Positions 9,087 to 55,922 of a stretch of DNA of 64,000 nt are shown here, in pieces. The notes beneath the pieces were generated by a model. The model worked only from the letters and a program-made list of their open reading frames with translations, was not told the DNA's origin and made no database searches. Made by a program: the position numbers and the translations under genes. The number at the start of each line of letters is the position of its first letter. Position 1 is the first letter of the stretch. This stretch comes from Phytoseiulus persimilis (taxonomy: Eukaryota > Arthropoda > Arachnida > Mesostigmata > Phytoseiidae): the NCBI GenBank assembly GCA_037576195.1, contig CM075103.1:36345250-36409249 (forward strand), in the 5' to 3' direction.

Positions 9087-9403
9087 TTAGGACTCGGCGA
9101 CCTTTGTCGCCGTCAATGAGTGAGATTCTGAGAGGGGAGAAAGACGATTTCGAGACAGAACGACACTGCACAGCCAGTGCTCCTACGATGTTCTTCGAGA
9201 TTCGTTCCAGTTGACGCTATTTTCACGGCTCTACCATCTATTGTCATACCTCTACCTCTCGATCCCAACTCTTCATGTTCAATAGACACATGTCCTGCGA
9301 TGTTCAATACACGTTCAATCGAGCTGTAGGTGTCGACCCTCGGCTTCTCGTTTCATAGGTGCACTTTCTGGAGTGGTGAACGCCTGGAATGTTCTGACTG
9401 ACG

Positions 9404-10599: not shown

Positions 10600-12250
10600 A
10601 CTCATGCAGTTGACGGCCATCGGTAACTTGATTTTCGCCTCATGGAAGAAGACAGAAGCCGAGGAAGAGGGTTGTGCTGAGCTCGCGGGTCGAGCTCAAC
10701 GCTCGGCCAGGCACTCTTCCAGCGGGCCGAAGCGTACCAAGGCATTGAGTTATTTGGATGGAAATTTTGATCTCATGTTCCGGCATTCTGATCTCACCCA
10801 GCAAGGCGGCCGCCATCATTGAAGGGAGCGCCATGAATCATGGGAGCGTCGAAACTATCGAACAATCTACGAACGAGTCCGTGCATCGCCCCGGGCTCCA
10901 GCACCTCTCTTTAGGTCACCGCACATCAGGCCTGCTAGCGACAGTGGCGTAGCCAGATATACCCCGGTCAGGGGCTGAATTAATTTTCCGTCCTCGAAAC
11001 CATTCATAGAGAGTCTATAAAATCCATCCATTCATGGAGTCCAATGAGAACGGTAGGATCGCATGATCAACAGCTGCAGGAAAACTCACGTTGGACTTGA
11101 AAACTCGAAAGCGAGGAGTTGAGGTTCTCGTTCCTCATGTAACTGGGCATCGATAGTCCCTATCAAACGCCTTTACCGTATCGTAACATATTAACCCGCC
11201 TTCGGCTGACTATGCTGGGCCCTCGCTTCGGGAATCTTGTGCCGACAAATAGACAGTGCCTTCTATGTATGTAGTGTCAAAAGGCCTCGAGGAGTGGCCA
11301 CCGATTCTCGATAGCAGAATATCCGGGCGGTGCGTCTCATGGTAGAGATTATATCCCTGTCATACCAATGAGCGAACACAATCCTGCAGTTTATCCTGGC
11401 AAAGAGGTGCTTTTCCCCCTCTTCATTAGGTCAGCACCATTTCGAAACTTTCTTCTTATTCGGCTACTCAGCGCATCTTGTCCGTTGAGAATCCGGTCAC
11501 ACCGACCCCGGGAACACTCACCTAAATTTCGAGAAGTGTGGTGAGATCGACTCCAGGATCCACCTCCTGAGACTCCCAAAACAATGAACGGATCGACCCC
11601 TGATTACCTACCTAGGTCTCAAAAAGTAAGATGGTCGGCTCCTCCCCCCCCTGGGTAAGCCACTGGCTCGAGAAGAGGTTCACTGCTCCTGTGAAGTACG
11701 CGTTCTTTCTTCAAAATATGATTCGGAAACTTCGCGACGCAATGAGAACAACCAGAGGGCACCGAAGGTTCGCCAGAATTATAGCCTTTCATCTATTGAA
11801 CTGAAGAGAGGGATTCGGTGGATGTTATTCATGCGTCACCATCAGGACACATGCCATGGATTTCGTTTGCTCCCCAGGGAATGCAGCTTGCTTCGAGAGC
11901 CGGGTCCCTGAGCTTTTCCCGAGCCGGCCTCGACCACCTGATAGGGTCCACTCCACAACCATCGTCCTTGCAAGACACTCTCGAGTACCTCGCAAGAGAA
12001 TCACCGCGGTCTCGTACCGTCATCATCAGCCGGAAGAATGTCTTTGGAATGGGCTCGCCATCGGAGCCCATTCTGTCATTATGGCGATTGCTGAGCTCCT
12101 CTCCACGGAGCTCGAGCTCGGATGTTCTGCCCGGGCTCGGCTGACAGAACCCTTTCAGATTGTATGAGCTCGAACTGTTCCTCGGAGTCCGGCTCTCTGT
12201 GAAGCCGAGGATTCTTTTAGGTGCGTTCACAATGCTTTATCATCGATACA
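10600..12250 (+). repeat. Diverged copy of the IR-array spacer (matches 23.9-24.88 kb)
   Basis: Stretches at about 10740-10940 and 11680-12010 align, with many changes, to about 24150-24330 and 24390-24720. Examples are the shared AAGTA(C/T)(A)CGCGTTC..TCTTCAAAATAT segment and the CCGCAACCGTCGTTCTTGCA-like segment. The spacer between IR units therefore exists in an older copy left of the array. It suggests that an IR unit once stood further left and was lost. No gene is recognised in it. Confidence 0.6.
10940..11200 (+). repeat. Interspersed repeat, copy 1 of the GGCGTAGCC family
   Basis: Begins AGTGGCGTAGCCAGATA and contains AGGGGCTGAATTA and CCATTCATTCATGGAGT-like segments, all repeated in order at 12555-12760. 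The opening motif is of the kind often seen at ends of arthropod transposons. Class unknown. Confidence 0.5.
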
Positions 12251-12554: not shown

Positions 12555-12900
12555 GAACAGCGGCGTACCCAGGATTTTCTCCGGGGAGGGGCTGAATTAT
12601 TTTTCTGTCCACCCACCTTCCAAGCCTATTGTAACACCCCGAAGAAATCTTTCTCTTATCTTCTGCCGAGCCATTCATAGAGAATTCCTGGAATCCATTC
12701 ATTCATGGAGTTCAATGAGTACGGTAGCATCGCCTCGTCAACAACAACAAAGGAGCTTACTCTATGGTCTTCAACGATAGCCTCTACCAAACTACATCAC
12801 ACCAGCCGGACCAGTGGACTGCGGTTCCTGGCATAAACACCTTTCTCCTCTTCATGTATCATAGTCAGCATCGCTTCTAAAAGTATCTTCGGCCGATCGG
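12555..12900 (+). repeat. Interspersed repeat, copy 2 of the GGCGTAGCC family
   Basis: Begins CGGCGTACCCAGGATTTTCT and shares GAGGGGCTGAATTA, the CATTCATGGAGTTCAATGAG segment and following sequence with copy 1 at 10.94 kb. This copy carries about 80 extra bases in the middle. No coding capacity is seen. Confidence 0.5.
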
Positions 12901-13600
12901 TGCATGCTGTCAATTTTCTGTGAAGCAGTTCGCACTATGCTGAACGAACATTTTCACTGAAATCAGGGCACGCTCCGTGTCTCGTAGACGGTCCTCTACG
13001 CGCTTGTAGACACCCGGGGACGGTCTTGTGGATTCTTGAAAACGGTCTTGAAGACACATATACGTCAAATCATCTCCTCAGACCCAGAAGAGTACAGTCA
13101 GATCGATCTTGGAATGATCTTGAAGCCTGCTCAGCGCCAGCTGGCTACGCCACGGCACTGAAAAGTGCCCTGACTTCTTCGCCCGAAAGCCGAGCTCATT
13201 CAGGATTTCCTTCCAGGATGGAAAACTGTAAAAACAAAACTTTTGGCAAGATTTGGCAAAAGTGATCAGATCGACCCGGCATTTCCATGAACGGATAGTT
13301 TGGGCCATTCTATGAACTTCTCGCCATCGGAGTTTTTTTCGGATTCGGCTTCCATGAGGAGATGCGGGACGATTGAACCGAGGTGACATTATGTCAGCAG
13401 ATGAGAGATTTGTGCGATACTGGTGCGCTCGGTGGCCCTTCCTCGTGCTTTCGACCGATTCTTGCCATTTCTTCAGCGCATGAGGCACATCCTTTGCTGT
13501 ATCGAAATAAACGATGAAGAGCTGGATCGGTTCACGAAAGACTTTTCAGGGGCAGTTTTTTGGAGAAATCGACCTTCCTCCGACTAACGTTGACCACCCT
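12900..13600. other. No recognised gene
   Basis: Nothing recognised. The minus-strand ORF 13078-13488 has no motif and is judged accidental. Confidence 0.4.
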
Positions 13601-15217
13601 GTACTCATAATGTCAAACTCGATCTTCTCGGGCACTCTCGGGGCGTCTGAAGCTGATTACAGCAATTTCATTCTGTTCCCAATGGCTCGCTTTCGTAGAA
13701 TACGTGCCATCTTGTGGAATACGAGGGCCATACGTTTCCCGCGCCCTGCGCCGGGCCCCGCGCGTGGCCAGGTGTACGTTTACCGTGTTTCGCGTGCCCA
13801 CTATCTTCGGTGATGAAGACCTGGCGAGCTTCATCATGCTACGTATGAGGTAGAGCACTTCAGCATTTCCGCCTTGAACTCCCCACGAGTCCTCTCGAGA
13901 ATCCGTCAAGACTCAATATTTTTCGAAGTTGGAATACGCTCCCGTTCGAGATATCAGGTCGTCGAAGTTGCTCACGAACTGCTTTGAGAACCAGGGTGAA
14001 AGAACCAGCGATGGGCCATTCACCAGTCATAGGCCTACGGGTCTTTTCAGGATATGATTCCTGCTTGTAAAGTCCAGAGAGTCGGCCCGGACCTCGCCGC
14101 CGTTTTTCCGGGTAAATGTCCTGAAGTCTTCTCATCAGAGTTGCTCTTGAGACATTGGCTGCCTCTCTTTGACTCATGCCTCTCTGTTCGCTTCAGCGAT
14201 GGCATCGTATGCTACGATTCGTCGTGTACGGCGTCCTGGAACGCGGATATTTCCGGATCGCCAAAATGATAAGAAACACCCTGGTTTCTAAGGATGATAG
14301 ATATAAATCAAGGTCGAAAAACTCGCTAACGGCCTACTGGAGCTTCGGGTCGAGGTACAATGCAGCAAGGAACCAGAGACATAGCTCGCGATTTTGTTGT
14401 CTCACGAATAATTCGAGCACCTTTCTCCGGGCGGCTCTTGCCTTGTTGACTTCCGTGCCAATGGCCACATTTGACCGGACATTGAAACGTCCCTCAAAAT
14501 ATTCAGCGATTGATCGAATTCGACTTCCCTATCGGGTCTGCTGTCTCGCTCCTGGACCAGAATGAAGTTTTCATGGACACCTCTGGCTTCATATCCTCTC
14601 AGCTGACTCTACAGGAAAAATTGTGAAGAAATTCACTGCCCATGACTGGTTAGTACCTGACTCACAACCAGTGATTGGCCCAAAACTGATGACTGACCCA
14701 TATCTGGTTCTTCTGCCCCACATCCTCTCAACTAATCTACAAAACTTCACTACTTTTCGGGCTTGTGGGGAACTCCCCTTGGTGTACCCAGTATGCGAAT
14801 AAATAGAAAGCGTGCTTGGTGTGCATATGGGGTTGCTGGTCTTCATTAAATCTGAGGGAGGGGCACGGTTTGAATTCGGCCGAACCCGCATTTCATCGAT
14901 ATCCTGGTATCACAGTTCTCATATTGCGAACAGCAGCCTTGGAAACCTCCAGGAAGCTCTCAGGGGTCCGGGAACTTATCCGTTACTCCTATTCCACCCA
15001 ACCAGCTTTTTAGGTCAAGCAGAGAGCCGTCTCCGCGAAATTTGGTTTGAGAGGGAAGCTCGACCTCGAGCCCGAGTTCCTCAACCACCTCACTAGAGAT
15101 TCATGATTCCGCGTGACGTCCGTTGTTCCAGATCCCGCCAGCGTAGACGAAACGCTCGTAATTAGTAGACCCCATTCATAGGGCTGCTCGGTGGATAAAC
15201 TGGAGAGAGTTCCGAGT
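13600..15217 (+). repeat. Tandem unit U0, spacer part
   Basis: The first 400 bases match, with divergence, the left end of unit U1 (15640-16000). From about 14040 to 15217 the sequence is nearly identical to 20893-22094 (unit U2) at an offset of 6852-6877 bases. The match stops abruptly at 15217/22094 after GAGAGTTCCGAGTT. U0 then jumps into the middle of an IR gene. The unit carries the helix-turn-helix remnant at 14000-14280. Confidence 0.8.
14000..14280 (-). pseudogene. Psq/CENP-B-type helix-turn-helix remnant, copy in U0
   Basis: Minus-strand reading from 14177 gives MSQREAANVSRATLMRRL followed by EKRRRGPG. This resembles the Pipsqueak/CENP-B N-terminal helix-turn-helix found in pogo/Tigger-like transposases (S-x-x-x-A-A-x-x-x-V-P-x-x-T-L, then a basic linker). 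The segment preceding it, ending IVAYDAIAEANREA, is in another frame, and no catalytic domain follows. It is a fragment, duplicated together with the array unit (second copy at 20.74-21.13 kb). Confidence 0.5.
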
Positions 15218-15600
15218 TCCGCTCGGTCTATGATTATCTCAACAGCAAGATGATATGCAACTCAACAATGATCAACTTGAAATTCGAGCTCTCGACCGAG
15301 CAATATGGTGAGTATGATAAGCAGATGCTGAAACAGTATTCAACGACCCGAAACACCATATTCGAGTGTCTCTCACTAATCCATCATCGCGAAACCGATA
15401 TTCTTGCCTTGGTCCAGCCTCTCGAGGCTGGAGTTTGGGTAACGATATTTCTTCACATTTTGGTCTTGTGGGCTTAATGTCTTGGGGCTTGCTCTCTGGG
15501 ATATTATTGCGGGGAGGGATTAGAATGGTACTCGAACTTCACAGCGAATTCTCACCTTTCATTGGGGTATTGCTTGTGCGACATCAAAGGGAAACAATGG
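15217..15600 (+). pseudogene. IR0: chimeric fragment of an ionotropic receptor gene
   Basis: Nearly identical to the middle of IR1 (from position 18274 on). It encodes the segment before M1 and most of M1 (EAGVWVTIFLHILVL), with a stop at 15475-15477. It then skips about 200 bases of IR1, losing the third transmembrane segment, and resumes with the sequence matching IR1 from about 18737. It ends near 15600, where unit U1 begins. The first 200 codons, the M3 channel segment, ligand-binding half S2 and M4 are missing. The left join at 15217 fuses spacer directly to gene interior with a few bases of overlap, so this is a deletion product and cannot make a receptor. Confidence 0.82.
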
Positions 15601-15604
15601 TCAC

Positions 15605-16730
15605 CGCTCTGTATCATCCATATATCAACGGCTAACTCATAAGGTCAAACTCGATGTTCCCGGGCACTCTTGGGGCGTCTGACACTGATGATACCGATTC
15701 CGTCCTGTGAACCATTGATCGCTCTTGTATTATACGTATCATCTCGTAGAATACGAGTGCCATGCGCACATGGGATGTACATTCCACATGTTCGTTCCTC
15801 GGGTGTCCACTGTCTATGGACATCCGCAGAGGCAAATCTCTTTCTTGTAACGTCCATCATGCTACAGGTACGGTGGAGCAATTACGCGCTTCCGTCTTGA
15901 ACCTCCTACAACTTCTCCCGACTTCGCTCGAGAATCCCTTCAGACTCAATGCACTTCGATGTGGGATAGGCTCCCGATCGAGATACGTTTGGCTGTGTCG
16001 TTCAGGTCATCCAAAAACCGCATTGGAAACTAACCTCCTCTGAACTGACGTTCAAAATTTTGCCATGCTCTAAGTTCGCGAAGAGCTCCCCTTTTATTGT
16101 TTAGAGCTTCTCATATTGCTAACGAAAGCGTTGGAGATCTCCAGAGAGCTCTTGAAAATTTGGGCGCTGATCCGTGACCACAATGTCACCCGAACAGCTT
16201 TTCACATCAAACAAAGAGCCGTCTCAGGGAAAATATGAATCGAGACGGAAGCAACACCTCAACCTCGAGTTCCACGACGAACTCAGATTCATGGTCATGC
16301 GTGGCTGATACCGATTTATATTTTGTGTCGGCATGTATTTCAAATTGGGACAGCGGGATATCTTCCGCGACTCCATGGGAATAAAATTTCATCTGACCCG
16401 GATTCCGGTTTTAAACGGTTACTGGAGAATCACTGAGCATTGCAGTTCAAACCTTGCCCCAAATTATCGCTTCCCTCGAGGAGGAATACATGTTTATCTC
16501 TGCCTGATTTCGGTGAGGGGACGTCATGTTGTTGTGCTCGGAGAATACCTAGCGATCTCGCGAATCCATCTTCATCTAAGGCGTTTGAGGAATTCCTTCT
16601 TTCCGTTCGTCTGTAGCCATGGAAAGAGTGAACCATGTCGTTGTTTCCTCACACCTGGTTAGCTCGTTCGCTATTCCAGATAACCGCTTGCGTGCTAGAT
16701 ATGCGAGATGAAACGCTCGTGAGAAGTGGA
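15605..16730 (+). repeat. Left part of tandem unit U1 (copy of 24873-25998)
   Basis: From CGCTCTGTATCATCC at 15605 the sequence matches 24873 onward with an offset of 9268 and only scattered substitutions. The identity continues through the IR gene to about 19345/28615. The stretch at 16090-16730 is also a diverged relative of 14915-15200 in U0. ORFs here on both strands recur in both copies only because the DNA is duplicated; none shows a family motif. Confidence 0.85.
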
Positions 16731-17663
16731 CCCCATCCATGGGGCTGTTCGGTGAAGTAAACTGGAGAGAGTACCATGTGAACCATAGGGTTTACCCTCT
16801 GTGAGTTGTTCAAGAAACAAAAAAATCCAGCTGCCACTCCATCTTCGCTCGGCGATGGAGCCGTCTAACGACAAATCGATTGAACGAAAGAGGAAGAACG
16901 TCGATAAGAGAGCTCCGAGCCTCAATAATTCGCAAATTACAGGTGGGAACGATACGATCGGAGCTTCAACCGTAGGTCTGTGCCGACATGAGGACTATCA
17001 GGGGTGTACCAGATATCGCATCTCTCCGGCTCAGAGGCCAATCGCTGCATAGTGGATCCGGAACTCTTCTCAGTCAGTACAATGGAATGAACGGTGTGCA
17101 TCGTCGTCTTATCTATGGTGAAAATCGTTTTCCTTGCATCGAGGCCCTTATGACAATGCATTCCGCGGAATATGTTCGGCGAGTGACCACTCCTTTGCTC
17201 CGAGATTTCAGGGCAATGTCGAGCTCTCTGAGGCGGAGTCCAAGGCCAAAATTCTCATCTGCGCGATTTGCTTCGAATTCAGAGTGACTCATCGGAATGT
17301 TGGGATCCATCATCAACTTTGTTCGGTAGAGTGTTTCTCGACGACATAAAAGTTCGTGAAACCTTCCTTCCTCCTTGCTTATCGGGACTGAAGTTTCGTA
17401 ACTGTGAGAAGCGGACTGAAGTCGGCATGGAGTATGGATGCAGAAGATGCTCATTCCAGGAATCTGTTTTATTCTCAGTTTTTCTCTGCTAAGGGTCATG
17501 AAACAACCTCGCTCGTCGCGAAGGTCCTGCTTTCCGGATCTGTGAGAATGGAGAACTTGAGGGAGATCGATGAACACAATTCGACGCAATCGGACTCGCG
17601 ATCCCGACGTGTGTTTTTTGTACACCTATTTCGTTGGCATTAGCAATTTTTCGCCGTTTCAAG
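16730..17663 (+). other. Conserved 5' module of IR1, possibly containing a 5' exon
   Basis: This module precedes each long IR copy (also 22040-22895 and 25998-26933). It holds a conserved ATG at 16855 opening MEPSNDKSIERKRKNVDK. In the U2 copy the same start is kept and a 3-base insertion leaves the frame intact, which hints at past coding. Just before the IR start, all three modules keep an AG after a pyrimidine-rich stretch, followed by a reading frame open in the same phase into the receptor. This suggests a splice acceptor and an upstream exon. A GTAGG at the end of the first ORF could be a donor, but its phase does not fit. Function unknown. Confidence 0.35.
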
Positions 17664-19322
17664 ATGCTGACGGCCCTCTTGTTCTTAAATATAGGAATAG
17701 CCTCCTTCCACACTTCCGTACTGACCGTGAGCGAGATCCCAACGGAACCTAGCGCGATGGACGTTGTTACTGAAGCTGAGAATTTCGCTCTTGAACGTGG
17801 TACCCCGCCAACGAAATTACTCATCTTGGACATCACCGATTTCTTGGTGAAGGAAAGCGTCACACTCAATGCGAGCTTACTAGTTCAAAGACTGCCCTCC
17901 AAACTGGTTGCGACGTCGGGCTTCCATACGTTGCCTCTTTTCCTAGATGTATTGGCCACCAACTTGAAAGTTGTCGTCGTTTCGGTAGCCCCTTTCTACA
18001 AGCCGAGACCTGTTAATCCTCATACCCCAGATCCTTTCCAAAACTTCCGGCACAACTGTATCCTCCACATAGCGATAAAAGGAGTCTACAGTTTCAGTAA
18101 TACGATGTACGTTAACACGATTTTCTGGAGAATGGATGGAACGCGGCTTTTCAATTGTGTCACAAATTTCGATCACTTGCTGTTTTGGATCAGGAAAACC
18201 CCACCGAACTTATGTCTGCCAAGTAGAGAAGTTTGCTCGATGACGTCAATCACCTCCGAGAAAGTTTGGAAGGTCCGCTCAGTCTATGATTATCTCAACA
18301 GCAAGATGATATGCAACTCAACAACGATCAACTTGAAGTTCGAGCTCTCGACGGAGCAATATAGTGTCCATGATAAGCAGATGCTGAAACAGTATTCAAC
18401 GACCCGAAGCACCATATTCGAGTGTCTCTCACTAATCCATCATCGCGAAACCGATATTCTTGCCTTGGTCCAGCCTTTCGAGGCTGAAGTTTGGGTTGTG
18501 ATATTTCTTCACATTTTGGTCATTGTGGGCTTAATGTCTTGGCTCAGAATCGGCAGTTTCCTGAGCACGCTTGGCCGAACTTTGATGAACACCATAGCGG
18601 CCATCGAGATCAAGGCAGACATCCGCCGAAACTCTCATCTGCTAGTAGTTGGCTGTGTGATGGCGCTGTTATTCTTCGTTGGACACGTTTACACCAATTC
18701 TTTCATTTCTGTCTTCCTCGATCCCAGAGACTTCAGGGCTTGCTCTCAGGGAAGATATTGCGGGGAGGGATTAGAATGGTACTCGAACTTCACAGTGAAT
18801 TCTCACCTTTCGTTGGGGTATTGCTTGTGCGGCCTCAAACGGAAACAACGAGCCCTCACGAACAAGCCCCTCCAGCGTCAAGTCTTCCATGAGGGCGATC
18901 GGCTTCCCATGAACATGAGGAAAGGGAGACCTCGGTTCTTACAGAAGGCTCTTCATGAGAAATTTCGAGGAGAAGGCCTATTTCTCGTTGTTCCGATCCG
19001 GGTCAGCTCGAAAATCGATCGGCTGTTCCAGACCGGAATCTTGCTCAACTTTCCAGCTGAGCTTTCGGATGACAAAATCAGGCGATTTCTCAGGGGCTCT
19101 ACTAACAGCTTCATCGAATTACAATCCACTATTTCCCCCCTTAACATGCTCAGAGCCATAGAATTCAACACCACAAGCGATTGGTTTGATATGAAGAGCT
19201 TCATGAAACTGCTCCCGATCTACGAACTTTTTTCGGTACTCTTGTTCATCGCCTTCTTTGTCGAGTACCTCTATCCGATGCCGCCGAGACTGCGAATCCG
19301 CGTCAGCTCACGGAAACATTGA
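17664..19322 (+). CDS. IR1: divergent ionotropic receptor (chemoreceptor-like ion channel)
   Basis: Encodes 552 residues from ATG 17664. The frame is open ten codons further upstream but has no ATG there, and MLTALLFLNIGIASFH at the chosen start looks like a signal peptide. The layout fits the IR/ionotropic glutamate receptor family: an extracellular N-terminal half; M1 at about residues 276-294 (EVWVVIFLHILVIVGLMSWL); a short loop of about 30 residues; M3 at about 325-353 ending HVYTNSFISVFLDP, comparable with the YTANL-type end of M3; a ligand-binding S2 half; and M4 at about 517-536 (LPIYELFSVLLFIAFFVEYL). The glutamate-binding residues are not obvious, as usual in IRs. IRs are cation channels in sensory neuron membranes; the ligand is unknown. 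It is a near-identical paralogue of IR3. A 5' exon may exist upstream. Confidence 0.84.
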   Translation: MLTALLFLNIGIASFHTSVLTVSEIPTEPSAMDVVTEAENFALERGTPPTKLLILDITDFLVKESVTLNASLLVQRLPSKLVATSGFHTLPLFLDVLATNLKVVVVSVAPFYKPRPVNPHTPDPFQNFRHNCILHIAIKGVYSFSNTMYVNTIFWRMDGTRLFNCVTNFDHLLFWIRKTPPNLCLPSREVCSMTSITSEKVWKVRSVYDYLNSKMICNSTTINLKFELSTEQYSVHDKQMLKQYSTTRSTIFECLSLIHHRETDILALVQPFEAEVWVVIFLHILVIVGLMSWLRIGSFLSTLGRTLMNTIAAIEIKADIRRNSHLLVVGCVMALLFFVGHVYTNSFISVFLDPRDFRACSQGRYCGEGLEWYSNFTVNSHLSLGYCLCGLKRKQRALTNKPLQRQVFHEGDRLPMNMRKGRPRFLQKALHEKFRGEGLFLVVPIRVSSKIDRLFQTGILLNFPAELSDDKIRRFLRGSTNSFIELQSTISPLNMLRAIEFNTTSDWFDMKSFMKLLPIYELFSVLLFIAFFVEYLYPMPPRLRIRVSSRKH

Positions 19323-19344
19323 GTGGATTCCCGGGACGTAGCTT

Positions 19345-20430
19345 GCCGCCAGGAAAGGAACGAAGCGCTTTGCTGGCAGAAGAAATCGTTCTTTCGCTCG
19401 TGGCGAGATTCCGCAAGGCCCACGGCGTGACAGATGCGAAACCATGACGGTTTCACTGCAGCGGCCCCCTGACGGCCTCCCAACTGGAACCGGTGCGGGA
19501 CCGGTTCTGAGCCCAGAACCGTCTCTGGGCATCTTTCCTCGATCCGCTCAAACTGGTTCTCCGAATCGATTTTTCACTTCCTGTCACAGTTGTCGTCGCA
19601 GACAACGCTGGATTATATCTGAGCCCTGCATGTTTGTGAGATCATGCGAAAATATCAATACTTTTTTCGGAAAGGCATACTCTCCGATTCTTTTATTCAG
19701 AAGAGAGAATAGGGGGTCACGATGCCTGGCGAGCACCGGAACCGCAAAATGAAGAAGATTCCATACGGTTAGACTCCGAGGGGCACTTCGCTGGAAGTCG
19801 CTCAGGGCTCTGGACACATATGTATCCATGAAAGCGAATTTCCCGAATGCGGCCGATGTTTCACTCTTTCCGTGTAGAAACTTCACAGAACTAGGACCAG
19901 GAGAACAGTGCTCATTTATTATTCACAAAAAAATGAACTCCGGGGGCGTTCTCGCTGGAAGGAGTGAACAAGCTCACCTGATTATGGCAATTCGGTCCCG
20001 GCGGACTGCAACCTCTCGAGCCATCTCCATGGTTCACATTCCTAGCGAGCTAGGGCTAGAGTTGGTTTTTCTGGCCATTGCCTCCGTTTCTCTGGTGCAT
20101 ACCCGGAATCTCGAATACCCCGAATTCGTGAAAAATACCCAGGATCCCGAATACCCGAGATCCCGACTACTCCTCCCCCTAAAATCGAGCCTTGGTGAGA
20201 GTCAACGAGCCTTCTATGCTTAGCGATGAATCTGAATCCGTCGTGAATTGCCATGTCGCAGCACATGCGGAATGGAATGATCCTCATAACTGAATATTTC
20301 GGACGATTTTTCTGCGTGATTCTGCAGAAAGTGATACATGGAGCGAACTGTGGATCAGGATGGAGGCGTACGGCGCGTCGAGCGAAATCGACCTGACCCC
20401 AGAAGATACGCTCCCGTTCGAGATATCAGG
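19345..20430 (+). repeat. 3' flank of IR1, paralogous to 28615-29945
   Basis: Shared blocks in the same order show this is the duplicated 3' flank of the IR gene: TTTCACTGCAGCGGCC (19443), the TTTCGGAAAGGCATACTCTCC region, CTCTCGAGCCATCTCCATGGTT (20012), and the segment ending TCGACCTGACCCCAG. It is much more diverged than the gene itself, with indels. It includes a short CCCGAATACC-type minisatellite near 20098-20170. No gene is recognised. Confidence 0.7.
20098..20172 (+). repeat. Short minisatellite, unit about CCCGAATAC
   Basis: Several imperfect copies of a 9-10 base unit (CCCGGAATCTCGAATAC, CCCGAATTC, CCCGAATACC, CCCGAGATC) lie side by side. The same array occurs in the paralogous flank at 29634-29705. 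Confidence 0.6.
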
Positions 20431-22094
20431 TCGTTGAGGTTGCTGAAGAACTGCCCTGAGAACCAGAGCAAATGAACCAGTCATGGGCCAGCTGCAAGAT
20501 ACGGGCCACTTCAAAGAGGGATAGGCGTTAGAAATGACTGGAGTGTACTGGTAAAATCATCGAATATATCAAGTTACCCCAGCTGAGGCATATGATTCCA
20601 TGGCCCGACGGTGCTCGCGGCATCTCGTCGCCGTCTCGGCTCGAAGGGCGTAGAAATTCTCAAGATGTCGTCTTGAGAGGGACCGCCGAGAATTGACGAC
20701 GGCGAATCCTTTTCACTGTCTACTGGAGATCGTGGCAAGACATCATTCTCCGGAGTCCGGAACCCGCCGTGACCGACCGGTCCGGAACCTGAATTTGCGG
20801 ACCAGCCAGTCCGGTAAGTCGCTTTCCTTGATCCGAAGTTCCGGAAAGTGATTTTCCGTAAGCAGAGACCCGTGACCCAGTTGAGCCATTGTTCCTATCC
20901 AGGATATGATTCCTGCTTGTGAAGTCCAGAGAGTCGGCCCCGGACCTCGCCGCCGTTTTTCCGGGTAAACGTCCTGGAGTCTTCTCATCAGAGTTGCCCT
21001 TGGGACATTGGCTGCCGCTATTTGACTCATGTCTTTTGCTGGCTTCAACGATGGCGCCGCAAGATCGGCATCGTATACTACGATATGTCGTATACGGCTT
21101 CCTGGAACGCGGATACTTCCGGATCGCCGAAATGGTAAGGAACACCCTGGTTTCTAAGAATGATAAAGCAAAATCGAGGTCGAAAAACTCGCCAACGGCA
21201 TACTGGAGCTTCGAGTCGAGGTATACTGCGGGAAGGAATCTGAGACACAGCTCGCGGTTGTGTTGTCACACGAATAATTCGAGCACCTTTCTCCGGGCGG
21301 CTCTTGCCTTGTTGACTTCCATCCCGATACCCATATTCGACCGGACATTGAAACGTCCCTCAAAATATGCAGCGGTTGATCGAATTCGACTTCCCTATCG
21401 GGTCTGCTTCCTCGCTCCTGGACCAGAATGAAGTTTTCATGGACACCTCTGGCTCCATATCCTCCCAGTTGACTCTACAGGAAAAATTGAGAAGAAATTC
21501 ACTTCTCCTGAGGCCCATGACTAGTTGGTACCTGACTCATGACCAGTGGTTGGCCCAAAACTGATGACTGACCCATATCTGGTTCTTCTGCCCCACATCC
21601 TCTCAACTAATCTACAAAACTTCACTACTTCTTGGGCTTGTGGGAAACTCCCCTTGGTGTACCCAGTATGCGAATAAATAGAAAGCGTGCTTGGTGTGCA
21701 TATGGGGTTGCTGGTCTTCATTGAATCTGAGGGAGGGGCACGGTTTGAATTCGGCCGAACCCGCATTTCCTCGATATCATGGTATCACAGTTCTCATATT
21801 GCGAACAGCAGCCTTGGAAACCTCCAGGAAGCTCTCAGGGGTCCGGGAACTTATCCGTTACTCCTATTCCACCCGACCAGCTTTTTAGGTCAAGCAGAGA
21901 GCCGTCTCCGGGAAATATGGTTTGAGAGGGAAGCTCGACCTCGAGCCCGAGTTCCTCAACCACCTCACTAGAGATTCATGATTCCGCGTGACGTGCGTTG
22001 TACCAGATCCCGCCAGCGTAGACGAAACGCTCGTAATTAGTAGACCCCATTCATAGGGCTGCTCGGTGGATAAACTGGAGAGAGTTCCGAGTTA
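20400..22094 (+). repeat. Tandem unit U2, spacer part
   Basis: Matches U0: 20893-22094 corresponds to about 14040-15217 with few differences. 20405-20490 matches about 13940-14020, including GATATCAGGTCGT(T/C)GA. About 20530-20890 holds sequence missing from U0. At 22094 it continues into the IR 5' module instead of jumping into the gene, which shows that the U0 arrangement is the deleted one. Confidence 0.8.
20743..21130 (-). pseudogene. Psq/CENP-B-type helix-turn-helix remnant, copy in U2
   Basis: Minus-strand reading gives DMSQIAAANVPRATLMRRL, then EKRRRGPGPTLWTSQAGI and ISWIGTMAQLG. This matches the order found at the N-terminus of pogo/Tigger transposases and CENP-B: a Psq helix-turn-helix, a basic linker, then a second helix-turn-helix start. 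It is the better preserved of two copies (other at 14.0-14.28 kb). No DDE domain follows and the frame runs into unrelated sequence, so it is a fragment. A host Psq-domain gene fragment is an alternative. Confidence 0.55.
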
Positions 22095-22895
22095 CGGCTC
22101 CCACTCCTTCGCTTTGGGATGGAGACGTCTAACGACGAATCTATTGAACGAGAAAGGAAGAATGTCGATGAGGGGGCTCTGGAGGGCCTCAATAATTCGC
22201 AAACTAGAGGTGGGAACGATACGATCGGAGCTTCAACTGTAGGCCAATCGCTGCATAGTGGATCCGGAACTCGTCTCAGTTAGTACAATAGAATGAACGG
22301 TGTGCATCGTCTTCTGATCCATAGCAAAAATCATTCTGCCCGCATCGGGGACCTGATGACGATGCACTCCGCAGAATATTTTCGGCGAGTGGATACTCTG
22401 TTGCTCCGAGTGTTCAACGCAATGTCGAGCTATCTGAGGCGGAGGCCAAGGCCCGAATTCTCTCCTATGCGATTTGTTTCGAGCTGAGGGTGACTCATCG
22501 GAAAGTTGGCATCCATCATCAATGTTGTTCGGCAGAGTGTTTCTCGACGACCTCAATGTTCGTGAAACCTTCTTTCCTCCTCGCTTACAGGGCTGAAGTT
22601 TCGTAGCTGTGAAGTGCGGACTGAAGTCTGCATGGGGTGCAGATGCGAGGAATGATCATTGCAGGACGAATCAGTTCCGGTCATATTTTTTCCTTGCTGA
22701 GCTTCATGAAACAACCTCGCTTGTCGCAAACTTACATTGTCCTGGTTTCTGGATGAGTGCAAATGGGAAATTCGAAGGAGAACGGGAGAGATCACGGTTG
22801 TCGGTAAACACAATGAGACGCATTCGGAGTCGTGATCTCAACGTGTTTTTTATCCACCTCTTTCGCTGGCAGTGGCCATTTCACGCCGTTTGAAG
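22094..22895 (+). other. Conserved 5' module of the IR2 pseudogene
   Basis: Copy of the module at 16.73-17.66 kb. The conserved ATG at 22119 opens METSNDESIERERKNVDE, with an in-frame 3-base insertion relative to the other copies. A deletion of about 56 bases after GTAGG removes the segment present in the other two modules. The AG before the receptor start is kept (CTGGCAG). Confidence 0.4.
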
Positions 22896-23689
22896 ATGCT
22901 GACGGCCCTCTTGTTCTTAAATATAGGGATAGCCTTCTTCCACACTTCCGTACTGTCCGTGAGCGAGATCCTATCGGGACCTAGCGCGACGGTCGTTGTT
23001 ACTGGAGCTGAGAATTTCGCTCTTGAACGTGATATCCCGCCAACGAAATTACTCATCTTGGACATTACTAATTTCTTGGTCGAGGAAAGCGTCACACTCA
23101 ATGCGAGCTTACTGGTTCTGAGACCGACCTCCAAACTGGTTGCGATGTCGGTCTACCAGACGGTGCCTATTTTTCTAGATGTATTGGCCACCAACTTGAA
23201 CAACGAGCCCTCACCAACAAGCCCCTCCAGCGTCAAGTCTTCCATGAGGGCGATCGGCTTCCGATGAACATGAGGAAAGGGAGACCGCGGTTCTTACAGA
23301 AGTTTACTAATGAGAAATTTCGAGGAGAAGGCCTACTTCTCGTTGTTCCGATCCGGGTCAGCTCGAAGATCGATCGGCTGTTCCGAACCGGAATCTTGCT
23401 CAACTTTCCAGCTGAGCTTTCGGATGACGAAATCAGGCGATTCCTCAGGGGCTCCCCCAATAGCGTCATCCAAGTCCAATCCAATATTCACCCCCTTAAC
23501 ATGCTCAGAGCCTTAGAATTCAACACCACGATCGATTGGTTTGACATAAAACTGCTCCCAATCTACAAACTTTCTTCGGCACTCATGTTTATCGCCTTTT
23601 GTGTCGAGTACCTCCGCCAGATGCCGCAGAGAGTGCGATTCCGCGTCAGCTCACGAAAACCCAGATTGGATTCCAGGAGCCGAGCTTGA
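22896..23689 (+). pseudogene. IR2: ionotropic receptor pseudogene with an internal deletion
   Basis: The first part (ATG 22896, MLTALLFLNIGIAFFH) matches IR1 for about 100 codons. At 23200 the sequence jumps from the IR1-equivalent position 17968 to 18846. The 877 bases between, encoding the rest of the N-terminal half, M1, the pore region and M3, are missing. Since 877 is not a multiple of three, the frame shifts and stops at about 23265-23267. The remaining C-terminal sequence is open in another frame to 23689 and keeps S2 and M4 (LLPIYKLSSALMFIAFCVEYL), less four codons before M4. The edges lack GT and AG and share only two or three bases, so this is a deletion rather than a missed intron. 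Confidence 0.88.
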
Positions 23690-24872
23690 CGTGCTGAAGG
23701 ATAGCGAAGCGCTTTGCTGGCGCAATACATCATTTTTTCTCACTCTCGCCACAATTTCACAGCGCTCCGCTGAGCCCTGCGCTGGCCGCTAGCGGCGTCA
23801 GTTTTGGCATCGTGTTCGTTGGAGACGGGAGGAAGCTTGTCCGTGACCCACATGTCGTTTCAAGCCATGACAGATGCAAGACCATGATCACGATGGGTCG
23901 ACTTCGCTGCAGCGGCCTTCTTTCGGCCTCTCAAAACAGTTGGGGGCCATCCTGAAGCTCATGTCACGGTTCACGGCATAATGAGGCTTGTTTCCCTCTG
24001 CTTCGGAGGGCTCACCAATCTCCCACAGGCGGCGCAGCTGAGGTAGGTCGTGAATGAATGTCTATATGACAAAAAGTGCCTATTGATACCACCTTCCCGC
24101 TCGCAACTGGAAAGAACCAACGAGCCGAAACATGAAGAATTCGGGATGATAGATCGTTGGTTCTTCCCTCCATTTTGATCCCACTCAGCGGGGTGGCCGC
24201 CATATATCGACAGGGACGCCATAAACTTTCATTAGAGAACGTGAGGTTGGACAAATAATCGACGATCGAGTTCGTGCATACCTTCAGCACCTCCTCTCGG
24301 GCGCCATCAAACGGAACAAATACGCACCTTTAGCGCCCCCTGAAATGGGATCACAACTCAACGCGGATCATAGCTGCTGAAATTCAGAGAAGGTTCATGG
24401 CTTCCGCGAAGTATACGCGTTCGTCCTTCAAAATATAATTTGAACAATTCGTGACGCAATCAGCGCAACGAGAAGGCACCGACCGTGTCATCTTGCGTCA
24501 TCGAGCCCCGGAACGCATGGAACAGTTGAAAAGCTATCGACGATAGGCGACTGATGTACGTGTGTCAGTGCTTGGAATTCGGCGAGCAGTGTTCAACGTG
24601 AGAAACAGCGCATCCCGCTTTATTGGGTCATATCGCACCTGGAGCCTTGCGATCCAAGGTTCGGCTCCGCAACCGTCGTTCTTGCAGGACATTCTCGAGG
24701 ACCTTGCAAGAGATTCAGTGCATCATTGGTGGTGCATGATGATGGTGGAGGGGAGCTCCTCTCCTTGGAGCTCCTGCTTCGATGTCCCACCCGACCTTGG
24801 ACGACTGAAGCTTTCCAGATTGACTGAGCTCAGACGGCTACGTGCGGTTCGGCTCTCTGAGAAGCGGGTCGG
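23690..24872 (+). repeat. 3' flank of IR2 and spacer to unit U3
   Basis: The start shares GCTTTGCTGGC and the TTCGCTGCAGCGGCC(T) block with the flanks of IR1 and IR3. From about 24150 to 24720 it is the better preserved relative of 10.74-12.01 kb. No gene is recognised. ORFs at 23971-24290 (minus) and 24562-24903 (plus) lack motifs. Confidence 0.6.
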
Positions 24873-25998
24873 CGCTCTGTATCATCCATATATCAACGGC
24901 TAACTCATAAGGTCAAACTCGATGTTCCCGGGCACTCTTGGGGCGTCTGACACTGATGATACCGATTCCGTCCTGTGAACCATTGATCGCTCTTGTATTA
25001 TACGTATCATCTCGTAGAATACGAGTGCCATGCGCACATGGGATGTACATTCCACATGTTCGTTCCTCGGGTGTCCACTGTCTATGGACATCATCAGAGG
25101 CAAATCTCTTCCTTGTAACGTCCATCATGCTACAGGTACGGTGGAGCAATTACGCGCTTCCGCCTTGAACCTCCTACAACTTCTCCCGACTTCGCTCGAG
25201 AATCCCCTCAGACTCAATACACTTCGATGTGGGATAGGCTCCCGATCGAGATACGTTTGGCTGTGTCGTTCAGGTCATCCAAAAACCGCATTGGAAACTA
25301 CCCCCTCTGAACTGACGTTCAAAATTTTGTCATGCTCTAAGTTCGCGAAGAGCTCCCCTTTTATTGTTTAGAGCTTCTCATATTGCTAACGAAAGCGTTG
25401 GAGATCTCCAGAGAGCTCTTGAAAATTTGGGCGCTGATCCGTGACCACAATGTCACCCGAACAGCTTTTCACATCAAACAAAGAGCCGTCTCAGGAAAAA
25501 TATGAATCGAGACGGAAGCAACACCTCAACCTCGAGTTCCACGACGAACTCAGATTCATGGTCATGCGTGGCTGATACCGATTCATATTTTGTATCGGCA
25601 TGTATTTCAAATTGGGACAGCGGGATATCTTCCGCGACTCCATAAGAATAAAATTTCATCTGACCCGGATTCCGGTTTTAAACGGTTACTGGAGAATCAC
25701 TGAGCATTGCAGTTCAAACCTTGCCCCAAATTATCGCTTCCCTCGAGGAGGAATACATGTTTATCTCTGCCTGATTTCGGTGAGGGGACGTCATGTTGTT
25801 GTGCTCGGAGAATACCTAGCGATTTCGCGAATCCATCTTCATCTAAGGCGTTTGAGGAATTCCTTCTTTCCGTTCGTCTGTAGCCATGGAAAGAGTGAAC
25901 CATGTCGTTGTTTCCTCACACCTGGTTAGCTCGTTCGCTATTCCAGATAACCGCTTGCGTGCTAGATATGCGAGATGAAACGCTCGTGAGAAGTGGAC
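24873..25998 (+). repeat. Left part of tandem unit U3 (copy of 15605-16730)
   Basis: Nearly identical to unit U1 at an offset of 9268. U1 plus U2 (15605-24872) form one 9.27-kb unit, of which U3 is the start of the second copy. Confidence 0.85.
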
Positions 25999-26933
25999 CC
26001 CATCCATGGGGCTGTTCGGTGAAGTAAACTGGAGAGAGTTCCAAGTGAACCATAGGGTTTACCCTTTGTGAGTTGTTCAAGAAACAAAAAAATCCAGCTG
26101 CCACTCCATCTTCGCTCGGCGATGGAGCCGTCTAACGACAAATCGATTGAACGAAAGAGGAAGAACGTCGATAAGAGAGCTCCGAGCCTCAATAATTCGC
26201 AAATTACAGGTGGGAACGATACGATCGGAGCTTCAACCGTAGGTCTGTGCCGACATGAGGCCTATCAGGGGTGTACCAGATATCGCATCTCTCCGGCTCA
26301 GAGGCCAATCGCTGCATAGTTGATCCGGAACTCTTCTCAGTCAGTACAATAGAATGAACGGTGTGCATCGTCTTCTGATCCATGGCAAAAAAATCATTCT
26401 GCCCGCATCGGGGACCTGATGACGATGCATTCCGCGGAATATTTTCGGCGAGTGGATACTCTGTTGCTCCGAGTGTTCAGAGCAATGTCGAGCTATCTGA
26501 GGCGGAGGCCAAGGCCCGAATTCTCTCCTACGCGATTTGTTTCGAACTGAGGGTGACTCATCGGAAAGTTGGGATCCATCATCAATGTTGTTCGGCATAG
26601 TGTTTCTCGACGACCTCAATGTTCGTGAAACCTTCTTTCTTCCTTGCATATCGGGACTGAAGTTCCGTCGCCGTGAAGTGCGGACTGGAGTCGGCATGGA
26701 GTATAGATGCAGAAGATGCTCATTCCAGGAATCTGTTTTATTCTCAGTTTTCCTCTGCTAAGGTTCATGAAACAACCTCGCTCGTCGCGAAGGTCCTGCT
26801 TTCTGGATCTGTGAGAATGGAGAACTCGGGGCAGATCGCGGTTGCTGAAATCTCTGAACACGATTCGACGCGACCCTAACGTGTTTTTTTCTTGCACCTC
26901 TTTCGTTGGCTAGTCATTTTTCGCCGTTTCAAG
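25998..26933 (+). other. Conserved 5' module of IR3
   Basis: Copy of the module before IR1, with the ATG at 26122 (MEPSNDKSIERKRKNVDK), a small ORF ending at 26319, and the pyrimidine-rich stretch and TTGGCTAG directly before the receptor frame. As in the other copies, the frame after this AG is open into the receptor with two leading bases, consistent with a splice acceptor. No donor of the right phase was identified. Confidence 0.35.
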
Positions 26934-28592
26934 ATGCTGACGGCCCTCTTGTTCTTAAATATAGGAATAGCCTTCTTCCACACTTCCGTACTGACCGTGA
27001 GCGAGATCCCAACGGAACCTAGCGCGATGGACGTTGTTACTGAAGCTGAGAGTTTCGCTCTTGAACGTGGTATCCCGCCAACGAAATTACTCATCTTGGA
27101 CATCACCGATTTCTTGGTGAAGGAAAGCGTCAAACTCAATGCGAGCTTACTAGTTCAAAGACTGCCCTCCAAACTGGTTGCGACGTCGGGCTTCCATACG
27201 TTGCCTCTTTTCCTAGATGTATTGGCCACCAACTTGAAAGTTGTCGTCGTTTCGGTAGCCCCTTTCTACAAGCCGAGACCTGTTAATCCTCATACCCCAG
27301 ATCCTTTCCAAAACTTCCGGCACAACTGTATCCTCCACATAGCGATAAAAGGAGTCTACAGTTTCAGTAATACGATGTACGTTAACACGATTTTCTGGAG
27401 GATGGATGGAACGCGGCTTTTCAATTGTGTCACACATTTCGATCACTTGCTGTTTTGGATCAGGAAAACCCCACCGAACTCATGTCTGCCAAGTAGTGAA
27501 GTTTGCTCGATGACGTCCATCACCCCCGAGAAAGTTTGGATGGTGCGCGCCGTCCGTGATTATCTCAACAGCGAGATGATATGCAACTCAACAACGATCA
27601 ACTTGAAGTTCGAGCTCTCGACGGAGCAATATAGTGTCCATGATAAGCAGATGCTGAAACAGTATTCAACGACCCGAAGCACCATATTCGAGTGTCTCTC
27701 ACTAATCCATCATCGCGAAACCGATATTCTTGCCTTGGTCCAGCCTTTCGAGGCTGAAGTTTGGGTTGTGATATTTCTTCACATTTTGGTCATTGTGGGC
27801 TTAATGTCTTGGCTCAGAATCGGCAGTTTCCTGAGCACGCTGGGCCGAACTTTGATGAACACCATAGCGGCCATCGAGATCAAGGCAGACATCCGCCGAA
27901 ACTCTCATCTGCTAGTAGTTGGCTGTGTGATGGCGCTGTTATTCTTCGTTGGACACGTTTACACCAATTCTTTCATTTCTGTCTTCCTCGATCCCAGAGA
28001 CTTCAGGGCTTGCTCTCAGGGAAGATATTGCGGGGAGGGATTAGAATGGTACTCGAACTTCACAGTGAATTCTCACCTTTCGTTGGGGTATTGCTTGTGC
28101 GGCCTCAAACGGAAACAACGGGCCTTCACGAACAAGCCCCTCCAGCGTCAAGTCTTCCATGAGGGCGATCGGCTTCCGATGAACATGAGGATTGGTAGAC
28201 CTCGGTTCTTACAGAAGTTTATTAATGAGAAATTCCGAGGAGAAGGCCTACTTCTCGTTGTTCCGATCCGGGTCAGCTCGAAAATCGATCGGCTGTTCCA
28301 GACCGGAATCTTGCTCAACTTTCCGGCTGAGCTTTCGGATGACGAAATCAGGCGATTTCTCAGGAGCTCTACAAACAGCTTCATCCAATACCAATCCACT
28401 ATTTCCCCCCTTAACATGCTCAGAGCCATAGAATTCAACACCACAAGCGATTGGTTTGACATGAAGAGCTTCATGAAACTGCTCCCAATCTACGAACTCC
28501 TTTCGGCACTCATGTTTATCGCCTTTTGTGTCGAGTACCTCTACCCGATGCCGCCGAGACTGCGAATCCGCGTCAGCTCACGGAAACATTGA
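26934..28592 (+). CDS. IR3: divergent ionotropic receptor, near-identical paralogue of IR1
   Basis: Encodes 552 residues from ATG 26934, exactly the length of IR1, with roughly 20 to 30 residue differences by eye. Signal peptide (MLTALLFLNIGIAFFH), M1, M3 ending HVYTNSFISVFLDP and M4 (LPIYELLSALMFIAFCVEYL) are all present and no stop interrupts the frame. Differences cluster in the S2 half and M4 (e.g. KFINEKFRG against KALHEKFRG; LFSVLLFIAFFVEY against LLSALMFIAFCVEY). It is expected to be a sensory cation channel or co-receptor in dendritic membranes; the ligand is unknown. Intronlessness of the main body, as in many divergent IRs, is a reading from this sequence. A 5' exon may be missing. 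Confidence 0.86.
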   Translation: MLTALLFLNIGIAFFHTSVLTVSEIPTEPSAMDVVTEAESFALERGIPPTKLLILDITDFLVKESVKLNASLLVQRLPSKLVATSGFHTLPLFLDVLATNLKVVVVSVAPFYKPRPVNPHTPDPFQNFRHNCILHIAIKGVYSFSNTMYVNTIFWRMDGTRLFNCVTHFDHLLFWIRKTPPNSCLPSSEVCSMTSITPEKVWMVRAVRDYLNSEMICNSTTINLKFELSTEQYSVHDKQMLKQYSTTRSTIFECLSLIHHRETDILALVQPFEAEVWVVIFLHILVIVGLMSWLRIGSFLSTLGRTLMNTIAAIEIKADIRRNSHLLVVGCVMALLFFVGHVYTNSFISVFLDPRDFRACSQGRYCGEGLEWYSNFTVNSHLSLGYCLCGLKRKQRAFTNKPLQRQVFHEGDRLPMNMRIGRPRFLQKFINEKFRGEGLLLVVPIRVSSKIDRLFQTGILLNFPAELSDDEIRRFLRSSTNSFIQYQSTISPLNMLRAIEFNTTSDWFDMKSFMKLLPIYELLSALMFIAFCVEYLYPMPPRLRIRVSSRKH

Positions 28593-28614
28593 CTCGATTC
28601 CCGGGACGTACCTT

Positions 28615-29945
28615 GCTCTGCTGGCACAAGAGATCGTTTTTCCCGCTCGTGGCGAGATTCTACAAGGCGCACGGCATGATTACGAACGGTCGGTTTCGCT
28701 GCAGCGGCCTCTACAAAGTGTTGGCGGCCATCCCGGAGCTCGTGTCAGGACGAGGAACACCTCCGAATCTGTGACGAGCACGCTCGACGAGAAGATTCAG
28801 CCAGCGAGTATCGACAGGACTTGCAACACGAACAGCGATCCGTAATCTGATTCTGAGAGCCATCGGCAAGAATTCCAAGGGAGGACGCGGTTTCCGCCTC
28901 CTAGGATCCCCAAAGATAGGTCCGAGTACATGTACCACATGTAGCATATTCGACAAAAAGATTCGTCAAAATCGCAGTCAATGCCAGCGCGCTGTCACGA
29001 AAACAACCGATTTCGAATGTGCAGAACCGGCTCTGGGTGTCTTTCATCGATCTCTTCAAAATGGTTCTCCGAATCGATTTTTCACCTCCTGTGTCCTCTT
29101 CAAAAATTTCCAAGCTTCAGCTGATTCCGACCCTTGTCGTCGCAGAAAACGCTGGATTACATCTGAGCCCTGCTTGTTCGTGAGATCAAGCGAACATATC
29201 AATACTTTTCTCGAGAAAGCGTACTCTCTGATTCTGTTATTCAGAAGAGAAAACAGAGGGTCACGATACCTGGAGAACACCGGAACCGCAAAATGAAGAA
29301 GATTACATACGAGTCGACTTCGAGGGGCACTTCGCTGGAAGATCCTCAGGACTCTGAACACATATCCATGGAAGCAAACTTTTCGAATGCGGCCGATGTG
29401 TCACTCTTCACGAGCAGAGAATTCACCGTAATAGGAGTAGGAGAATAGTTTTCATTCATTACCCAGAACAGGAACTCTAGGCGGCGTCCTCGCTAGAAGG
29501 AAAAGAAAAGCTGACCTAATTATGGCGATCCGGTCCCGGCAGACTGCAACCTCTCGAGCCATCTCCATGGTTCCCATTCCTAGTAGCTAGGGCTAGAGTT
29601 CCTTTTTCCGGCCATGACCCCGTTTCTTCGGTGCATACCCGGAATCTCGGATACCCCGAATCCCTAGAAAAATAACTAGAATCCCGAATACCCGAGATCC
29701 CGACTACTTCTTCCCTTCAAATCAAGCCTTCGTGAGAGTAAACGAGACTTCTATGCTCAGCGATGAATCTGAATCCGTTTCGAATTGCCATGTCGCAGCA
29801 CATGCGTAATGAAACGTTTCTCAGAACTGAAAATTTGCACGATTTTCATCCGTGAATCCGCAAAAAGTGATACATGAAGCGAACTGTGGATCAGAATAGA
29901 GACGTACGACGCGTCGAGTGAAATCGACCTGACCCCAGGAGACTT
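28615..29945 (+). repeat. 3' flank of IR3, paralogous to 19345-20430
   Basis: Contains the same ordered blocks as the IR1 flank, from TTTCGCTGCAGCGGCC (28695) to TCGACCTGACCCCAG (29924), with about 250 extra bases near 28780-29030. It includes the minisatellite at 29634-29705. No gene is recognised. Confidence 0.7.
29634..29705 (+). repeat. Short minisatellite, unit about CCCGAATAC (second copy)
   Basis: Counterpart of the array at 20098-20172, with different copy sequences. A related phrase in the opposite sense, AGTATTCGGGAATACGG, lies further right at about 30318. Confidence 0.55.
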
Positions 29946-30780
29946 GAAGCTGAGGAGAGGAAGTGATCTCACGAGTTTCATTGAATTCCATTCCCCTCAT
30001 ATCAGACTACATTGCAGTCTATTCAGCTGGACCCGAACGGATGCAATGCACGTGTCGCGATTTCGACCAGATAGGTCCCGTATAAATCAATGATATAGGT
30101 TTCGCGTCAACTTCTCATTTCAAACACGCAATACCTACTATGAGTACCGGATCCAAGGCTGATCCAACCCGTAGCTTCTATGATCTCCTCTAGAACCTCA
30201 CTGTTCCCCAGTGCTCATCAAGACTCATCGCTGAGCATAGGAGTATCGTTGACTTTCACAAAGGCTCCATTTCAGGAGAGAGCTGTCGGGATCCTGAGTA
30301 TTCGGCAATCTCAGTATTCGGGAATACGGCACCTCGAACTCGAACCTCATCTCCACCGCTGCCTCGAGGCTTAGGCTCAGCGAGCGCTTAACGCAGCGCT
30401 GGGCTCTCTGTTTTCATCTTTTATTCAAGAATAAACGAAATATGTCGTTGGTAAACATGGACCTGGTGATCTCGAAGTCGATTGTTGACGACGAGGGAGA
30501 AGTGAAGTATAAGACTCGGACCGCGACTCGGTGACGCCCTCGTCAGCCAACGGCTTCCTCGGGGGAGCTCCCCTTTGTTGAAATCGACCAGATTCAGAAG
30601 GCTGATTCGATCTTCGATGTCGCCGTCCAAGGAACGCTGGATCAATGTCCCGCAGGTGAGCTCTATACTCCCAAGATCCAAGATTCGCTCGACAACTCTC
30701 CATCGTTCGAATCTCAGTCATCTCCTTCCCGGCGGACGCGGGATTCACTCAACTCCCGCACGCTAGCGACGGATCCGAGG
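29946..30780. other. No confident gene; one interrupted plus-strand frame
   Basis: A plus-strand frame from ATG 30442 (MSLVNMDLVISKSIVDDEGE) meets a TGA near 30532 and then stays open to about 30807, encoding a Ser- and Asp-rich segment with VEIDQIQKADSIFDVAVQG. It reads like protein but has no family match that I know. It could be a decayed ORF or two exon pieces. Confidence 0.25.

Positions 30781-37669: not shown

Positions 37670-55922
<18,253 letters not shown>

Follow-up and report, generated by a model that had tools for sequence, protein, structure and literature searches.

Divergent ionotropic receptors (IRs) standing in tandem arrays have been described for the IR94 and IR52 clades of Drosophila (Croset et al., 2010; PMC2924276). 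Among phytoseiid mites, an IR repertoire of 65 is reported for Neoseiulus cucumeris, with an equal number in Metaseiulus occidentalis (PMC6902594), and among Drosophila chemosensory paralogs a conversion signal was found in 8 of 14 groups, with a possible effect on the gene tree in two IR groups (PMC4122928). The available passages of the phytoseiid study (PMC6902594) make no mention of such an array as the one presented here, and our literature search found no description of it in titles, abstracts or passages, supplements aside.

Here we have analysed four receptor-like loci (IR0 to IR3) and the units that carry them (U0 and U2, of A type; U1 and U3, of B type) in a 64,000-nucleotide window (C3:36345250-36409249) of Phytoseiulus persimilis. 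The genome searched was a 181-Mb, 127-contig assembly whose contigs C1-C4 measure 54.7, 52.0, 38.9 and 28.1 Mb; its size compares with 173 Mb in N. cucumeris (PMC6902594), and the GC content of the window (about 50%) with 52% in M. occidentalis. IR1 has at least 79 matches in this genome, fragments included (78 of 96 candidates scored). Merging at 2.5 kb, which counts fragments and fuses IR0 with IR1, yields 70 places, 36 of which have a neighbour within 20 kb, a repertoire similar in size to the 65 of N. cucumeris and M. occidentalis (PMC6902594).

Table 1. The array and its flanks between 12 and 31 kb of the window.
Feature	Position	Strand	Evidence
Remnant of an inter-unit flank left of U0; diverged (70%) match to 24737-24867, which borders U3 on its left	12076..12207		homology search
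Interspersed repeats between left flank and U0 start	12555..13568		genome copies of query 556-1116 and ~1176-1569, 40 of 432 candidates scored
U0 unit start, older A/B duplication	13603..13953	+	66-69% to 15635-15985 (U1) and 24903-25253 (U3)
U0 upstream DNA, A type	13934..15224	+	matches U2 20406-20507 and 20895-22100; divergence falls from 21% to 2.3% left to right
IR0 relic	15191..15599	+	counterparts of IR1 ~18245-18542 and 18696-18850 only; 5' and 3' parts lost, as is the tail of the unit
U1 upstream DNA	15599..17663	+	15599-17000 at 1.4% from U3
U1 counterpart of converted tract, unlike U2 and U3	17084..17367	+	U2=U3 against U1 at 42/50 informative sites
IR1, intact single-frame receptor-like CDS, 552 aa	17664..19322	+	open frame
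Two interspersed-repeat segments, U1 3' flank; second ends abruptly at 20406	19485..20406	+	genome repeat copies
Duplication junction: truncated repeat joined to 13934-equivalent, ~1 shared base	20403..20409		homology map and junction letters
Interspersed repeat, left part of U2, missing in U0	20725..20871		query 1260-1406 matched elsewhere; gap in U0
U2 upstream DNA, A type	20895..22100	+	self-comparison
U2 tract, likely donor for DNA upstream of IR3	22290..22573	+	site grouping
IR2 5' part, open as far as deletion	22896..23200	+	homology to IR1
IR2 3' part, shifted frame, open to stop ending at 23689	23201..23767	+	homology to IR1
U2 tail, with repeat at 23987-24164	23768..24866		genome repeat search
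U3 upstream DNA	24867..26933	+	self-comparison
U3 tract grouping with U2, 298-583 bp before IR3 start	26351..26636	+	site grouping
IR3, intact single-frame receptor-like CDS, 552 aa	26934..28592	+	open frame
U3 3' flank repeats; second element continues beyond 29942	29006..30329	+	genome repeat copies

Receptor-like genes of the array

IR1 and IR3 had initially been annotated as intact and nearly identical, and this holds: both frames are unbroken over 552 residues, and the proteins are 95% identical. Their dN/dS of 0.49 (Fisher p 0.02) is consistent with moderate constraint; dS is 0.048 overall and rises along the coding sequence from 0 (first 103 codons) through 0.026 (middle) to 0.127 (3' part). 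Outside the window, scored matches covering most of IR1 go up to 43% identity, one 89-residue fragment reaching 52%, and the open frames of fetched members span 548-768 residues. The family shows several traits of divergent IRs, namely a single exon (from the open frame only), lineage-specific expansion, and tandem clusters with broken copies. Another tandem receptor pair, at C3:24110200-24119200 (loci L021, L069 and L022), gives a 2.6-kb match of 97.8% at an offset of 6369, both copies running off the ends of the 9 kb compared; five further pairs have longest matches of 96.4, 87.7, 89.2, 68.1 and 80.6% within the fetched stretches. Judging from the assembly, then, close tandem pairs exist elsewhere in this genome.

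Ionotropic receptors are laid out as a signal peptide, M1, a pore loop, M3 and M4. Hydropathy peaks at residues 4-22, 276-294, 326-344 and 516-534, plus an extra one at 90-108, are compatible with all of these but the pore loop, which lies outside this method. A profile of 28 family members matched GluN2 (NMDA receptor) in the pre-M1/M1 segment only, with a best E of 0.03; 57 of the 58 matched sequences are glutamate receptors, though ones that barely differ among themselves. Through the same segment, the family profile also aligns with exons of iGluR type found in this genome (hhalign E 1e-4, probability 57%, 39 columns), and a search of 883 frames, all from PF00060 loci, gave a best E of 3.5e-4. 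At E up to 1, no Pfam family was found for IR1 or IR3 (two window proteins) and no ligand-gated channel model, Lig_chan (PF00060) included, for the 28 members; none of the 33 PF00060 places in the genome falls inside the window, and IR1, searched alone, had no PDB match. The initial assignment to ionotropic receptors thus keeps a weak but specific pre-M1/M1 similarity, without a Pfam Lig_chan match. The likeliest identity, weakly supported as it is, would be that of divergent IR subunits in a chemosensory channel, a function read from sequence. Some other membrane-protein family would also suit the empty Pfam, ligand-gated-model and PDB searches, but sits poorly with the GluN2 profile match, the hhalign link to the genome's own iGluR-type exons and the order of hydropathy peaks, and we consider it unlikely.

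Elsewhere in the window, 33148-33678 (-) holds a frame for a cuticle protein, in which a Chitin_bind_4 domain was detected at E 1.2e-18. A kinase domain frame at 45710-46132 (-) and a sub-threshold UBA domain (E 5e-4) at 44619-45113 fall within what we take to be a MARK/Par-1-type kinase gene (44619-46132, -), and weak, sub-threshold similarity to an integrase core (E 0.016) at 9398-10129 (+) possibly represents a decayed retroelement.

Duplication of the A+B block

Self-BLAST of the whole window aligned U1 15599-19466 with U3 24867-28709 (94.6% identity, offset 9268) and U0 14048-15221 with U2 20900-22096 (91.9%, offset 6852), in agreement with the matches at 9268 bases and about 6.86 kb reported initially. 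IR2 matches IR1/IR3 in two pieces (22241-23200 and 23186-23739, 82-88%), as does IR0 (15203-15485 and 15485-15600, 91-93%), all of these matches having E <= 3e-39. A finer search of 12-31 kb added three homologies that were absent from the initial annotation: 13934-14035 with 20406-20507, 13603-13953 with 15635-15985, and 12076-12207 with 24737-24867. As assembled, the array comprises four units, and the non-genic DNA of A and B is 66-84% alike, depending on the segment. In the genome search, the upstream DNA of U1 had only 22 matches outside the array, each of about 50 bases, and that of the A units had none among 40 of 432 candidates scored. The element at 16777-16827 is a dispersed one of about 50 bases, found at those 22 places and in both U1 and U3, and missing at the corresponding place in U2.

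The first bases of U2, from 20406 on, correspond to those of U0 from 13934 onwards, and the repeat directly to the left of this point continues in U3 past 29942 to about 30329; the junction letters are U3-like on the left and U0-like on the right, with about one base shared. Seven of eight fetched genome copies of this second repeat match U3 past 29942, the eighth stopping about 50 bases before, and the match of U1 to such copies ends at or just before 20406; two further fetched copies match the first repeat only. In both U1 and U3 the same two repeats follow each other in the same order and at matching distances (138 and 140 bp between matched parts). Independent insertions as the source of this 3' flank similarity were rejected, since the two repeats are collinear in both units and only one occurs per fetched 2.5-kb stretch (10 of 10). 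Because the repeat is truncated at 20406 and continues in U3, and U0-type sequence stands to its right, A+B appears to have been duplicated as one block, 13934-20406 and 20406-29942 (U0U1 giving U2U3). Offsets along the block are 6472, 6852 and 9268, and their differences (380 and 2416 bases) reflect later indels, above all some 2.4 kb of net loss from U0. The repeat at 29630-30329 has inverted ends and occurs at many places in the genome, typically with matches of 72-83%.

IR2 and IR0 are broken in different ways, as first annotated. IR2 has lost 877 bp, corresponding to 17969-18845 of IR1, and is joined at 23200/23201; this deletion shifts the frame and leaves a frame of 123 codons that starts at 22896. 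A long direct repeat as its cause was rejected, the BLAST pieces overlapping by 15 bases with only 2 junction bases fitting both sides exactly. What survives of IR0 corresponds nearly all to the segment deleted from IR2, and the 5' and 3' gene parts gone from IR0 are present in IR2. Since these visible lesions are private and complementary, gene A would still have had the tested parts at the duplication, and both breaks would be younger than the duplication of A+B, unless some of the lost sequence was restored by later conversion. With so little overlap between the two relics, A may already have carried point lesions before it was duplicated. The 3' part of IR2 has a dN/dS of 0.44-0.50 against the intact genes and the 5' part one of about 1.0 against IR1 and IR3. 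Such near-equality of dN and dS in the 5' part could reflect relaxed selection on A before the deletion, which counts against our preferred history. Of 8 variable sites at 18271-18303 in what remains of IR0, 6 group U0 with U1 and set U3 apart, which may mark a short tract. The "four stages of decay" of the initial annotation were an overstatement: two genes are intact, one has a single visible deletion, and one is a relic.

The initial annotation had also proposed two superimposed duplications, the later of which copied a 9.27-kb block, starting at U1, that already held one intact and one broken gene. A tandem array built in two rounds survives from this proposal; the history seems to have been different, with A+B duplicated as one block, and 9268 is the present distance between copies, not the length of a block with U1 at its left end. 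The proposal does account for U1/U3 homology beginning at 15599/24867 with exactly this offset. But copying U1+U2 needs a copy of U2 to the right of U3, and nothing right of 29942 matches 20407-24866 (BLAST of the whole window; finer search to 31000). As a duplication breakpoint, 15599/24867 was rejected: the apparent start of U1 at 15599 was set by the loss from U0 of its 3' part, which reached to that base, and the sequence flanking U3 on its left (24737-24867) has a homolog of its own to the left of U0, so that 24867 need not be a breakpoint. Together with the complementary lesions of IR0 and IR2, this makes a late copy with one gene already broken very unlikely. The left-flank homolog, 70% alike and today separated by repeats from the start of U0, lies where it would be expected if A and B came from an older tandem duplication.

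Divergence along the block and the tract upstream of IR3

Divergence between the block copies (MAFFT) is 21% at the left end, where 102 bases align, then 9.5% at 14043-14700, 2.3% at 14701-15224 and 1.4% at 15599-17000, and 15.5% in both the 3' flank and the repeats; with CpG sites excluded, the corresponding values are 17.9, 9.0, 1.9, 1.4, 12.0 and 14.6%. The estimate for the right-end repeats varies by aligner (19% BLAST, 15.5% MAFFT). Mismatch variance per 100-column window over the whole block is 48.6, compared with 6.2 in shuffles (p 5e-5), and mismatches cluster beyond shuffles in the CDS (p 1e-4) and in the repeats alone (p 0.008); the shuffle test assumes an even rate, and clustering is by itself no proof of conversion. 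Unequal divergence along the blocks had been named in advance as grounds for doubting the duplications, and it is what we observe (1.4-2.3% inside compared with 15.5-21% at the ends); it leaves the duplication standing and points to later conversion. We read the block interior as having been homogenised after the duplication, a reading against which the intermediate value of 14043-14700 (9.5%) and the right end, being repeat DNA and uneven, have to be weighed.

A single block in which constraint or mutation rate varies from place to place could be thought to leave such a profile with no conversion at all, as the CDS copies are in part very similar and repeats may change faster and are themselves uneven. 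However, 15599-17000 and 14701-15224 are non-coding yet only 1.4-2.3% diverged, as against 26-28% between A and B in the single segment where all four units align; the contrast persists with CpG sites excluded, and the grouping of copies itself switches in 17084-17367, which rate variation leaves unexplained. We therefore regard uneven rates alone as highly improbable. That haplotypes or reads were stacked into a false tandem array is scarcely credible, for although the array is known from assembled sequence, its copy ends differ by 15-21%, it has private indels and repeat insertions, and genome searches found no close extra copy on small contigs.

Gene conversion is recognised by a tract at whose limits the copies change partners, and such a tract is present at 17084-17367 (U3 26351-26636): 42 of 50 informative sites there have U2=U3, 7 have U1=U3 and 1 has U1=U2, identically in four alignments. 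To the left, 22-27 sites have U1=U3, 1 has U1=U2 and none has U2=U3; to the right, as far as 17570, U1=U3 at 39 of 56-57 sites, and in 17571-17663 the pattern changes with the aligner. The best segment of the tract grouping has a shuffle p of 5e-5. This mosaic indicates gene conversion or paired unequal crossovers, either of which can produce such a trace in a single genome. Because the U1 sequence is unlike both U2 and U3, the A-type U2 is the likelier donor to the DNA upstream of IR3 and U3 the presumed acceptor.

Discussion

From the homologies, the junction, the complementary lesions, the unequal divergence and the change of grouping in the tract, all of them direct observations, we infer an order of events, and the history as a whole seems to us quite probable. 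An old tandem duplication would have produced two receptor units, A and B. The A+B block would then have been duplicated in tandem, with an end-joining-like junction in the repeat element at 20406, giving U0U1 and U2U3; A1 (IR0) and A2 (IR2) would have been broken independently by deletion, and B1 (IR1) and B2 (IR3) kept open. Recombination between the block copies, whether interlocus gene conversion or expansion and contraction by unequal crossing-over, would have made the interior uniform; separately, a short tract of U2 would have been pasted upstream of IR3.

If so, an array dated by the IR1/IR3 dS of 0.048 would look far younger than its 15-21% ends suggest. The locus may thus offer a base-resolved case of conversion hiding the age of receptor duplications, and estimates of birth and death depend on such effects. 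It also suggests that units with broken genes can persist as sequence donors. A rather doubtful extension is that U2, whose gene is broken today, was a working donor of the roughly 285-bp tract 298-583 bp upstream of the IR3 start, leaving twin receptors with a near-identical pore region and different upstream sequence; were this true, a decaying neighbour would have opened a way for the twins to diverge in expression.

Like the IR94 and IR52 genes of Drosophila, which are mostly single-exon, lineage-specific, of low identity to other IRs and arranged in tandem arrays with pseudogenes (PMC2924276), the mite genes form broken and intact tandem copies; unlike them, they are too diverged for Pfam Lig_chan, are known from sequence, and have a single exon as inferred from the open frame. 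Unlike the conversion described among Drosophila paralogs (PMC4122928), the tract here stands upstream of an intact gene and is grouped with a unit that now carries a broken one. With these differences, the array has the look of ordinary gene birth and death, with conversion added, in a divergent family resembling the ionotropic receptors, a kind of cluster already known.
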